The notes beneath the pieces are model-generated. The model saw only the letters and a program-made list of their open reading frames with translations. It searched no databases and was not told the origin of the DNA. Both the position numbers and the translations under genes were made by a program. Shown here in pieces: positions 48,559-52,135 of a stretch of DNA of 64,000 nucleotides; position 1 is the first letter of the stretch; each line of letters opens with the position of its first letter. The DNA is from Actinoplanes sandaracinus. Lineage in GTDB: Bacteria; Actinomycetota; Actinomycetes; Mycobacteriales; Micromonosporaceae. Location: assembly GCF_030009775.1 (NCBI RefSeq), contig NZ_JASCTH010000008.1, positions 166,589 through 230,588 on the forward strand. The letters run 5' to 3'.

Positions 48559-48605
48559 TCCCGGCCTCGTCGATCGAAGCCCCGGGGCGTGCCGCAAACG
48601 AAAGG

Positions 48606-48653
48606 GCGCGCCCCGATCGCCTGCCACGGGGGAAGCGGGCGATTGGGGCGCGC
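48606..48653 (+). terminator. Terminator after pmt
   Basis: A 16-bp stem including one G-T pair (48606-48621 with 48638-48653) lies 48 bases past the pmt stop. Confidence 0.88.
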
Positions 48654-49023
48654 AGGAAGAGCTTAACGAGCGGAGATGTCCCGCACAACGGGTGCCGTAG
48701 CGAGAATGTCGCGTCGCTCCCACCATCCCAACGATACGGACATTAGCCTCTTACCTCGCTTATAGGATTTATCCTCTCACGAAACATGTTCGACAAACGA
48801 GTCGGCAATGCGACAGCAGATTGCCTCAGCAAACGGCGTAACCTCTTTTCTTTTGGCGTGGCGTCGCTGCTCAGCAGATTGGCGCGACTGAACCGGCACA
48901 CCCCCCTCCATCAGGCCCCTTCAGGCAGCCGGTTGCTTTGTCCTTTTTGTGACGATTAGTCGGCGGTCCCCCTTGTGGGTGATCTGTGCCAAGATCGCGA
49001 CAAATGTTCTTAGGCTTCGCCGC
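48654..49023. other. AT-richer leader region upstream of polysaccharide operon
   Basis: No gene is supported in 370 bases. The stretch near 48740-48870 is notably AT-rich for this genome and probably holds the promoter. I compared the leader by eye with known riboswitch patterns, including the c-di-AMP class, and found no convincing match. Confidence 0.5.
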
Positions 49024-50040
49024 GTGACTTCGCAGGAGCCCCAAACCTCGCACCAGGCCGACGAGTACGCCCCCGAGACGGAAGTGATCGCCGTACCGGA
49101 GCCCGCACCGGTGTTCGTGGACTCCACCGGACGGCGCAGCCGACTCCTCCGGCACCTCGCGTTGGCCTTCGGCATCCTCCTCGTCGCCTACGGCGGGCTG
49201 GTCAGCGTCAGCCTGGCCGGCGGGCCGGTGAGTTCGAGCGCCGTGTTCCCCCTGCCCGGACTCGACGACGACTCCGACGAGCCGAAAACCGAGCCCGTCC
49301 CCACACCGACGCCGACACCGACACCGACCACCAGCGCGGCCCGCCGGATCGTGGAATCGGCACAGCGTGACGGGACCGACCAGCGCCGGCCGGCCCTCTC
49401 GCCCTCGCCGAAGGCCTCCACCAAGCCCTCGAGGTCGCCCAGCCCCAAGCCGTCGCCGCCGAAGACGTCGGTCAGCCCGACGGTCACCAAACCGGTCGAG
49501 TCGGCAACCGTGACCAAGGAACCCGAGCCCGGCCCCGGCTCCGGCACACCCGTGCCCCCGGTGCCGCCGGTGCCGCCGCCCGTGGCGCGGATCCCCGACA
49601 GCGGCGGCGCCGGTGGCGGCGGCCCGGTCACCGGCTCCACCACCGCTCCCGCCGGCGGGTCCGCGGCCGCGGACCCGTCCCCGCCGACGCTGCCGACGGT
49701 CGCCGACGATCCCGTCGACCGCGCCGCACCATCCACCCGGCCGCACCATCCACCCGGGCCGCGCCGTGAGCGCCGCCCCCGCCCGCCGGGCCCGGCGCCG
49801 CATCCTGCCGCGCCCCCGGGTACTCCTCGGCGCCCTGCTGGCCGGCTCGTTCGTCGCCGTGCTGGCCGTGCAGGCCTACATCAACGCCGAGTTCGCCCGC
49901 GACCACGTCCAGACCACGGTCGGCGACCAGACCGCAGTGCCACCCTCGATCCTCAAGGGCGGCCCGATCATCAACACCACCGGCGGCCAGGAGAACAGCA
50001 GCCGGCTACCCGAACGCACCATCGCCCTCACCTTCGATGA
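49024..50040 (+). CDS. Pro-rich single-TM protein, probably frameshifted at its end
   Basis: The frame begins at GTG 49024, has ~40 cytoplasmic residues, a helix (LLRHLALAFGILLVAYGGLV), and a long extracytoplasmic tail rich in Pro/Thr/Ser/Lys (PTPTPTPTTS, SPSPKASTKPSRSPSPK). Up to about residue 239 it looks genuine. After a 17-bp tandem duplication at 49724-49757 the frame becomes an Arg/Pro shadow of the next gene and runs to 50040. With one copy of the 17-mer removed it would end ...STRAAP with TGA at 49767, overlapping the next gene's GTG. So the last ~100 residues are probably artefactual. Confidence 0.6.
   Translation: MTSQEPQTSHQADEYAPETEVIAVPEPAPVFVDSTGRRSRLLRHLALAFGILLVAYGGLVSVSLAGGPVSSSAVFPLPGLDDDSDEPKTEPVPTPTPTPTPTTSAARRIVESAQRDGTDQRRPALSPSPKASTKPSRSPSPKPSPPKTSVSPTVTKPVESATVTKEPEPGPGSGTPVPPVPPVPPPVARIPDSGGAGGGGPVTGSTTAPAGGSAAADPSPPTLPTVADDPVDRAAPSTRPHHPPGPRRERRPRPPGPAPHPAAPPGTPRRPAGRLVRRRAGRAGLHQRRVRPRPRPDHGRRPDRSATLDPQGRPDHQHHRRPGEQQPATRTHHRPHLR
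49724..49757 (+). repeat. 17-bp perfect tandem duplication
   Basis: CCGCACCATCCACCCGG occurs twice head-to-tail (49724-49740 and 49741-49757). The unit is not a multiple of three, so the second copy shifts the reading frame of the overlapping gene. Confidence 0.95.
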
Positions 50041-52135
50041 CGGCCCCGATCCGGAGTGGACGCCGAAGGTTCTGGAGGTGCTGCGCAGGCACGAGGCGCA
50101 CGGCACCTTCTTCGTCGTCGGGTCCCAGGTGGCCCGCAACCCGGAGGTGGCCCGCCAGGTCGTCGACGGCGGCAACGAGCTCGGCCTGCACACCTTCACC
50201 CACCCCGACATGCAGCAGCTCGCCCCGTGGCGGCGGGAGCTGGAGCTGTCACAGACCCAGATGGCGATCGCCAAGGCCACCGGGGTACGCACCAACCTGG
50301 CCCGGTTCCCCTACTCGTCGAGGAACGCCGCGATCGACGAGGGCAACTGGAATCTGATCAAGGAGGCGGGCGCCCTCGGCTACCTGGTCGTGGTCAACGA
50401 CACGGACAGCTTCGACTGGCAGCGCCCCGGCCCCGAGAAGATCATCGAGAACGCCACCCCGGCCGGCGAGCAGCCCGCCGTCATCCTGTTCCACGACGCC
50501 GGCGGCGAGCGCTCACAGACCATCGCCGCCCTCGACGAGTTCATCCCCCGGATGAAGGCCCGCGGCTACCGGTTCACCACCGTCACCGAAGGCCTCAACC
50601 TCAGCATCGCCGAGCAGGCCGCGAAGGCCGGCGCCGACCGGGCCGAGAGCACCGAGGCGCTCACGCCGCTGCCGCTCAACCCGCGGGCGCTCGCTCACGA
50701 CGAGTGGCGCGGCACCGCCGTGCTCTGGACGGTCGGCCTCGCCGACGGCATGGTCACCGTGATCGCCGGGCTCTTCCTCGTGGTCGGCGCGCTCACCATC
50801 GGCCGCACCCTGCTGCTGCTCCTGCTCGCCACCCGGCACGCCCGGCAACGCAGGAAACCCGGCTGGACATGGGGGCCGCCGGTCACCGAACCCGTCTCCG
50901 TGATCGTGCCCGCCTACAACGAGAAGGAGGGCATCCAGGCCGCGGTCCGGTCCCTGGCCGGCGGCGATCACACCGAGATCGAGGTGGTCGTGGTCGACGA
51001 CGGATCCACCGACGGCACCGCCGATCTGGTCGACCGGATGGCGTGGCCGAACGTCCGTGTGGTCCGGGTCCCCAACGGTGGCAAGCCGAACGCCCTCAAC
51101 ACCGGCGTCGCCCTCGCCCGCCACGACCTGATCGTCATGGTCGACGGCGACACCATCTTCGAACCCGACGCGTTGCGGCTGCTCGTCCAGCCGTTCGCCG
51201 ACCCGTCGGTGGGCGCGGTCGCCGGCAACGTCAAGGTCGGCAACCGGGAGACCACCGTCGCCCTCTGGCAGCACATCGAATACGTGATCGGCTTCAACCT
51301 GGACCGCCGCCTCTACGAGGTGATGAACTGCATGCCGACCGTGCCCGGCGCGATCGGCGCGTTCCGGCGGGAGGCGCTCGCCCAGGTCGGCGGAGTCAGC
51401 GACGAGACCCTGGCCGAGGACACCGACGTCACCATGGCGTTCTGCCGGGCCGGCTGGCGGGTCGTCTACGAGGAGAACGCCCGCGCCTGGACCGAGGCGC
51501 CGACCACCATGGAGCAGTTGTACCGGCAGCGGTACCGGTGGAGTTACGGAACCATGCAGGCGATGTGGAAGCACCGCAAGGCGCTGTTCGACTCGGGGCC
51601 CTCCGGCCGGTTCGGCCGGGTCGGCCTGCCGTTCCTCGCCCTCTTCGGGCTCGCGCTGCCGATGCTCGCCCCGGTCGTCGACATCATGCTCGTGTACGGC
51701 CTGGTCTTCTGGGAACTCGGCGAGACCGCCACCGCCTGGCTCGGCATGCTGGCCCTGCAACTGTTCACCGCGGCCGTGGCGTTCCGCATGGATCGCGAGT
51801 CGTTCAAGCCGCTGCTGAAACTGCCGTTGCAGCAGTTCGCCTACCGGCAGTTGATGTACCTGGTCCTGCTGCAGTCGGCCACCACCGCCCTGACCGGCGG
51901 GCGGCTGCGCTGGCACAAGCTCAACCGGACCGGGCTGGCCCCGCGGTCCGCGGAACCGCCACCGCCGCCGCTTCCACCACCGGCCGTCGCCTCGGTCGCG
52001 CCCGCGCTGGACACCTGGCCCCCGGTCTACGGCGACGTCCCACCGGCGCCGCGGCGGGCGCCGGTCGGGCGGGCCGTCGCGCCCCCGGCAGTGCCGTCCC
52101 AGCCCGCGGCGGAGAACCTGCGGGAAAGGCTGTGA
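49766..52135 (+). CDS. Bifunctional polysaccharide deacetylase / GT2 glycosyltransferase
   Basis: A 789-residue membrane protein. After a helix (VLLGALLAGSFVAVLAVQAYI), a NodB-type deacetylase domain has TFDDGPDP (metal Asp), HTFTHPD, ARFPYSS, DSFDW and ILFHDAGG. A helix follows, then a processive GT2 domain: VVVDDGSTDGT, VDGDT, EDTDVT and QRYRW, with further helices. It probably synthesises and partly deacetylates a beta-linked GlcNAc-type polymer. GTG 49766 was chosen because it forms a GTGA overlap with the ancestral stop of the upstream gene. Confidence 0.88.
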   Translation: MSAAPARRARRRILPRPRVLLGALLAGSFVAVLAVQAYINAEFARDHVQTTVGDQTAVPPSILKGGPIINTTGGQENSSRLPERTIALTFDDGPDPEWTPKVLEVLRRHEAHGTFFVVGSQVARNPEVARQVVDGGNELGLHTFTHPDMQQLAPWRRELELSQTQMAIAKATGVRTNLARFPYSSRNAAIDEGNWNLIKEAGALGYLVVVNDTDSFDWQRPGPEKIIENATPAGEQPAVILFHDAGGERSQTIAALDEFIPRMKARGYRFTTVTEGLNLSIAEQAAKAGADRAESTEALTPLPLNPRALAHDEWRGTAVLWTVGLADGMVTVIAGLFLVVGALTIGRTLLLLLLATRHARQRRKPGWTWGPPVTEPVSVIVPAYNEKEGIQAAVRSLAGGDHTEIEVVVVDDGSTDGTADLVDRMAWPNVRVVRVPNGGKPNALNTGVALARHDLIVMVDGDTIFEPDALRLLVQPFADPSVGAVAGNVKVGNRETTVALWQHIEYVIGFNLDRRLYEVMNCMPTVPGAIGAFRREALAQVGGVSDETLAEDTDVTMAFCRAGWRVVYEENARAWTEAPTTMEQLYRQRYRWSYGTMQAMWKHRKALFDSGPSGRFGRVGLPFLALFGLALPMLAPVVDIMLVYGLVFWELGETATAWLGMLALQLFTAAVAFRMDRESFKPLLKLPLQQFAYRQLMYLVLLQSATTALTGGRLRWHKLNRTGLAPRSAEPPPPPLPPPAVASVAPALDTWPPVYGDVPPAPRRAPVGRAVAPPAVPSQPAAENLRERL

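Follow-up and report, generated by a model that had tools for sequence, protein, structure and literature searches.

The question raised by this locus is why the reading frame of a matA-like gene fails to stop at the start of the following matB-like gene, as it does in related genomes, and instead continues into it beyond a perfect tandem repeat. The frame could record a true mutation, a reversible switch or an error of the assembly. The window (the whole stretch of 64,000 nucleotides analysed here) belongs to a genome assembled into 99 contigs with a total of 10.19 Mb, which its relatives place in the Actinoplanes group. Judged by sequence, the two genes are of the matA-matB kind. The features of the locus are as follows.

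49024..50040, + strand: matA-like gene as read, with a GTG start, one hydrophobic stretch (by eye), a Pro/Thr/Ser-rich linker and a run-on to TGA 50038-50040; 338 codons.
49613..49615, + strand: alternative in-frame GTG of matB, 51 codons upstream and within matA; anti-Shine-Dalgarno pairing of -5.0 kcal/mol, compared with -2.5 kcal/mol at 49766.
49723-49757, + strand: exact two-copy 17-bp tandem array; copy 1 at 49723-49739 and copy 2 at 49740-49756, with the match extending to 49757.
49741..50040, + strand: out-of-frame run-on of matA; its last 94 residues have a pI of about 12 and contain 26 Arg and Lys against 6 Asp and Glu.
49766-49769, + strand: GTGA, in which GTG is the matB start and TGA is the end of the matA frame in relatives; here it is out of phase with matA.
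49766..52135, + strand: matB-like gene for a protein of 789 amino acids, with a polysaccharide deacetylase domain (PF01522, residues 81-190) followed by a family-2 glycosyltransferase domain (PF00535, residues 378-540), both according to Pfam.

The matAB genes of Streptomyces (SCO2963/SCO2962; SLI_3306a/SLI_3306) are described as functioning in the synthesis of poly-N-acetylglucosamine (PNAG) and in hyphal aggregation (PMC4391728, PMC5972031). In S. lividans, the matA stop and the matB start are reported to overlap, pellets form only when both genes are present, and mutants of either gene lose PNAG (PMC4391728, PMC5972031). The window has the same arrangement, with the gene of a membrane protein that lacks a known domain placed directly 5' of a gene encoding a deacetylase and a family-2 glycosyltransferase. 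MatA of the window gave no match in Pfam and NCBIfam, and its residues 16-124 match a profile built from the relatives with 134 bits. Its start at GTG 49024 was assigned through the relatives L009, L015, L023 and L039, in which the open frame begins three codons before V-TSQEP. Searched with the genus-MatA profile, 54 of 62 distinct named loci have the core 5' of matB, among them seven of eight Streptomyces loci (L125 gave no match); the E values are 6e-8 to 7e-17 in six of these Streptomyces loci and 2e-7 in L129. The closest named relative of the matB gene is that of A. utahensis (86%). Among the NCBIfam models, the glycosyltransferase domain is nearest to PgaC/IcaA (TIGR03937, 187 bits, under the cut-off of 422), which is a likeness to the icaADBC and pgaABCD systems; however, the deacetylase and the synthase are fused in the window.

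The surroundings of the pair differ from those in Streptomyces. In the Streptomyces locus L123, an Acyl_transf_3 gene lies 3' of matB, as has been reported for SCO2961, whereas the next gene 3' of the window matB is on the opposite strand and appears to be GAF/kinase-like, as read by eye from the list of open reading frames; the place directly after matB is thus not taken by an acyltransferase gene. The 5' neighbour of matA in the window is a protein mannosyltransferase gene, and the Actinoplanes polymer is putative. A literature search for matA in Actinoplanes together with pellets returned nothing on topic, judged by titles.

A near-invariant hairpin element was noticed between the mannosyltransferase gene and matA, at about 48602-48690 of the window; it reads GCGCGCCCCGATCGCC...GGCGATTGGGGCGCGC, followed by AGCTTAAC and ACAACGGGT. 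The intergenic region containing it matches 58 of 65 same-genus loci, and the alignment, made of 52 of these and the window, varies too little for covariation to be assessed. With at most one mismatch allowed, 35 of 36 same-genus genomes (the source genome included) contain a single copy of its 20-base core, and none of 24 genomes from other families contains it. In the genus genome G024, a 6-kb stretch that lacks both matA and matB contains the hairpin, 3' of the mannosyltransferase gene. It had no match above chance in Rfam, and a 15-base piece of it was not found in the literature searched. The element is a candidate small RNA or conserved terminator.

The tandem array is located at the 3' end of the Pro-rich membrane protein gene (matA), shortly 5' of the matB GTG at 49766. 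A preliminary description of this DNA had reported two exact 17-base copies there, and the copies at 49723-49756 are indeed identical. The matA frame as read crosses GTGA out of phase and ends at TGA 50038-50040, so that it now shares 275 nt with matB in another phase, up to 50040. Frame arithmetic, with no sequence built, agrees with the further proposal that one copy fewer restores the overlap: removing 17 bases brings TGA 49767-49769 into phase, forming GTGA with the matB start. By inspection, copy 2 phased to this TGA reads AAPSTRAAP and then stops. An equally good description takes the array as an 18-bp unit, GCCGCACCATCCACCCGG (in-frame AAPSTR), minus one G, and Tandem Repeats Finder likewise offers an 18-base consensus with indels. 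The motif GCCGC(A/G)CC occurs at 49723, 49740 and 49758, with spacings of 17 and 18.

Exact arrays with a period of 15-60 were absent from all 50 order-2 Markov simulations of the window; therefore, the array is not a product of chance. The real window contains three exact arrays with a period of at least 10 (periods 15, 15 and 17), and a 400-kb portion of a different contig from this genome contains 28 exact arrays of at least 15 bp, eight of them not multiples of three. The window array is unusual by its position and not by its existence. Separately, two exact arrays were noticed on contig C13 of the same genome, a 14-bp unit repeated 19.5 times (L163, 9082-9354) and a 22-bp unit repeated 6.45 times (L160, 6622-6763).

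The original state of the junction was read from relatives. The same-genus set comprises all 65 relatives with a matB match at an E value of 1e-100 or better; G024 has no such match. The matB start in these 65 loci is GTGA in 55, ATGA in nine and TGATG in one (L146). A locus was assessable when the conserved matA core stood in the same frame, which gave 64 loci, L149 being left out for an N gap over matA. The matA frame ends on an overlap with the matB start in 63 of the 64, on NTGA in 62 and on TGATG in L146; the 63 include L011 (204 N in the locus), which was counted as intact although its frame crosses the N run. MatA of near relatives ends on the overlap as ...DPADAAVPSTRAAP, ...ADSTPPSTRAAP or ...ADSAPPSTRAAP, each followed directly by the stop (...STRAAP or similar). 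The sole same-genus exception is the single-contig genome G029 (L008), where, relative to L037, a C7 run of matA includes an extra C. This extra C joins MatA and MatB in one continuous frame, which reflects either a homopolymer error or a fusion of the two proteins.

A wider set of 157 distinct loci was assembled from the 65 genus loci, 60 from the family (the highest-scoring of 95 non-genus family genomes with a match) and 32 named loci (the best 80 of 577, after removal of duplicates). The matA core was found in 149. The other eight are L011 and L149, which have N runs; L092, L103, L107, L118 and L120, which have only 95-381 upstream bases; and L125. In 146 of the 149 loci with a core, the matA stop has a start in the matB frame within -5 to +6 nt of it (33 at -5, 96 at -1, 13 at +2 and four at +3 to +6). 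Some chance start codons would also fall within the search interval of -12 to +8; the clustering of starts at -5, -1 and +2 carries more weight. The three exceptions are L008, L246 and L123. In L246, 88 nt separate the matA stop from the matB start, which by eye has a purine-rich site of its own. In L123 (Streptomyces sp. GQFP), an in-frame stop ends matA early, 68 nt before matB, and the typical C-terminus and a TGATG overlap persist further down in the same frame.

No 17-bp array was found in the 64 same-genus matA regions scanned. The preliminary description had suggested that the same two copies in relatives, with conserved residues in the extended frame, would mark the long tail as real, and the search of these regions was negative. 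The junction is kept in relatives and the array is absent from them; therefore, the state in the window is derived. Both the reading as a frameshift and the claim that the duplication breaks an overlapping stop and start are supported by the 63 of 64 relatives. In these matA regions, 23 of 24 exact arrays of at least 12 bp are multiples of three. The 24th, a 16-bp array in G006 (L149), was considered as a second case and rejected, as it lies upstream of matA beside an N gap. At about 1566-1640 of L190 (G006), a 16-bp unit occurs about 4.5 times upstream of matA and is followed by the N gap over the gene. Among arrays of 7-11 bp, 26 of 33 are multiples of three; the remaining seven (7-8 bp) sit in loci with an intact frame and were therefore not counted as frame breaks. 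This predominance of multiples of three suggests that the linker tends to lengthen by in-frame duplications.

We propose that a recent, derived tandem duplication has occurred at the 3' end of matA, most likely as a true mutation in the sequenced strain, and we assign this reading a probability of roughly 0.5. The change should be recent because the two copies are identical. Its origin is probably replication slippage, for which two routes may be considered. A direct duplication of 17 bp could have used one base of microhomology. Alternatively, an 18-bp in-frame duplication, adding a second AAPSTR, could have arisen across the GCCGC(A/G)CC direct repeat, followed by the loss of one G from CCCGGG. 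MatA would remain the same up to the array and would acquire a basic out-of-frame tail, while its stop, which overlaps the matB start in relatives, would move 271 nt into matB. The ribosomes that complete matA would then no longer stop at the matB GTG.

The matB start itself pairs weakly with the anti-Shine-Dalgarno sequence (-2.5 kcal/mol, against a median of -5.9 kcal/mol in 64 relatives). With this weak match and no terminating ribosome at the GTG, translation of matB should fall, and less of a PNAG-like polysaccharide would be made; both the polymer and the phenotype are predictions from the genes. In seven of the 64 relatives, the matB site is weaker than -3 kcal/mol (in three, the same as in the window), and the NTGA overlap is present. 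The in-frame GTG at 49613 is better paired and could yield a longer MatB that is uncoupled from matA. In view of these weak sites and this GTG, matB may not rest wholly on coupling. Two other possible effects at the junction were rejected. The array contains the heptamer CCCGGGC, but programmed frameshifting there was set aside because, by inspection, the heptamer is out of the required phase, and masking of the matB start by RNA structure was set aside because the predicted fold of 49700-49800 is no better than those of shuffled sequences (z -0.76).

A serious rival to the true mutation, which we regard as quite possible, is an artefact of sequencing or assembly that would leave the junction of the living strain intact. 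The assembly could hold an unmerged 17-bp overlap at a join within the contig, or a real in-frame 18-bp duplication from which a G of CCCGGG was lost in the record. Contigs joined with their overlap unmerged would likewise show a duplication with a single base of microhomology, and under the second route the record equals 18 minus 1, so that a single wrong base in the assembly would suffice. The retention of the junction in 146 of 149 loci also favours an artefact. The N gaps within matA of two relatives, L149 and L011, indicate that the gene is hard to sequence, and the S. lividans 66 reference sequence is reported to have proved wrong within this pair of genes on resequencing (PMC4391728). 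In addition, the contigs of this assembly contain filler-like poly-C/G at GC-rich sites between genes, one of them at positions 1-70 of the window. The source genome has 171 and 121 overlapping 16-base runs of poly-C/G, the fourth highest number among 67 genus genomes, of which 27 have any and 40 have none.

Against an artefact, the window has no N, and none of the eight arrays in the 400 kb that are not multiples of three was shown to break a frame by a rough test of flanking codon composition. For two suspicious arrays in that stretch (one of at least 15 bp and one of 10 bp), the surrounding open reading frames were also inspected, and an interrupted coding frame was not demonstrated. A comparison with A. 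utahensis revealed no true frameshift in 39 other genes of the window, although breaks near gene ends are missed by this test, as its failure to flag the array indicates. In this comparison, 39 of 58 picked genes were matched and three were flagged; in the reverse direction, 44 of 48 were matched and none was flagged. The three flagged changes were rejected as frame changes since all are upstream of likely start codons. As a separate observation, the intergenic poly-C and poly-G stretches are imperfect and filler-like, and some lie in GC hairpins; besides positions 1-70 of the window, they were seen on contig C13 at 107751, 159203 and 168354 (L155, L157 and L158).

A broader reading is that matA is a recurrent target of frame breaks that uncouple or fuse matB and thereby tune hyphal aggregation, with cultured strains perhaps selected for dispersed growth. 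The window, G029, L123 and an S. lividans mutant would be its cases, and we consider it unlikely. Frame breaks were found in one of 64 relatives for matA and in none of 65 for matB (open frames of at least 793 codons), numbers too small for any claim about rates. In S. lividans, a one-base deletion in matA reportedly gave a non-pelleting strain, and matA restored the pellets (PMC4391728). This selected frameshift is a precedent for a true mutation in the window, as the mistake in the S. lividans 66 reference is for an artefact. That frameshift (PM01/PM02) resembles the window in that a frame break in matA accompanies an overlapping matB start, and its authors likewise expect an effect on matB translation (PMC4391728). 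However, it is a one-base deletion with an early stop at residue 176, selected in a chemostat (PMC4391728), whereas the window has a duplication near the end of the gene and a longer protein; the window as read also lacks the overlapping matA stop and matB start typical of matAB.

The preliminary description had further raised a slipped-strand switch that could modulate polysaccharide synthesis. Under this reading, coupled translation of matB would be lost and restored in the population as the second copy is gained and lost. Reversion is conceivable in principle, because the direct repeat at the coupling site has two copies, and another type of slip occurs in the same gene of G029 (the extra C in the C7 run). 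However, the array has two copies only, and the repeat tract is not conserved at the site, as would be expected of a phase-variable locus, in any of the 64 same-genus matA regions. Inside matA of the relatives, no array of at least 12 bp departs from multiples of three, the single such array being the one upstream of the gene. Such a switch is therefore very improbable.

That the long tail is a genuine functional C-terminus of MatA is scarcely credible: the frame is open for about 90 codons beyond GTGA, but 42 of 64 relatives, which make no use of the equivalent frame, also have it open for at least 80 codons, so that its openness means nothing; Pfam gives no match for the tail, and matA of the relatives ends at the overlap. 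The run-on of about 90 codons had been called an antisense-like shadow; the run-on is present, but its strand is that of matB, within which it occupies another frame. The basic tail is a shadow of matB and is unconserved as a protein.

The operon is of a known kind, and what it shows here is either a derived lesion or an error, not a new mechanism. If it is an artefact, it marks a gene pair at which assemblies err and at which a wrong frame misleads annotation. The near-universal overlap of the matA stop and the matB start in the loci read is a useful fact about this operon in itself. Industrial growth of actinomycetes is limited by hyphal clumping. If the duplication is real, the strain would be one in which the coupling of matA and matB is cut, and it would offer a ready means of testing how far matB relies on matA termination and whether hyphal clumping is selected against in cultivation.
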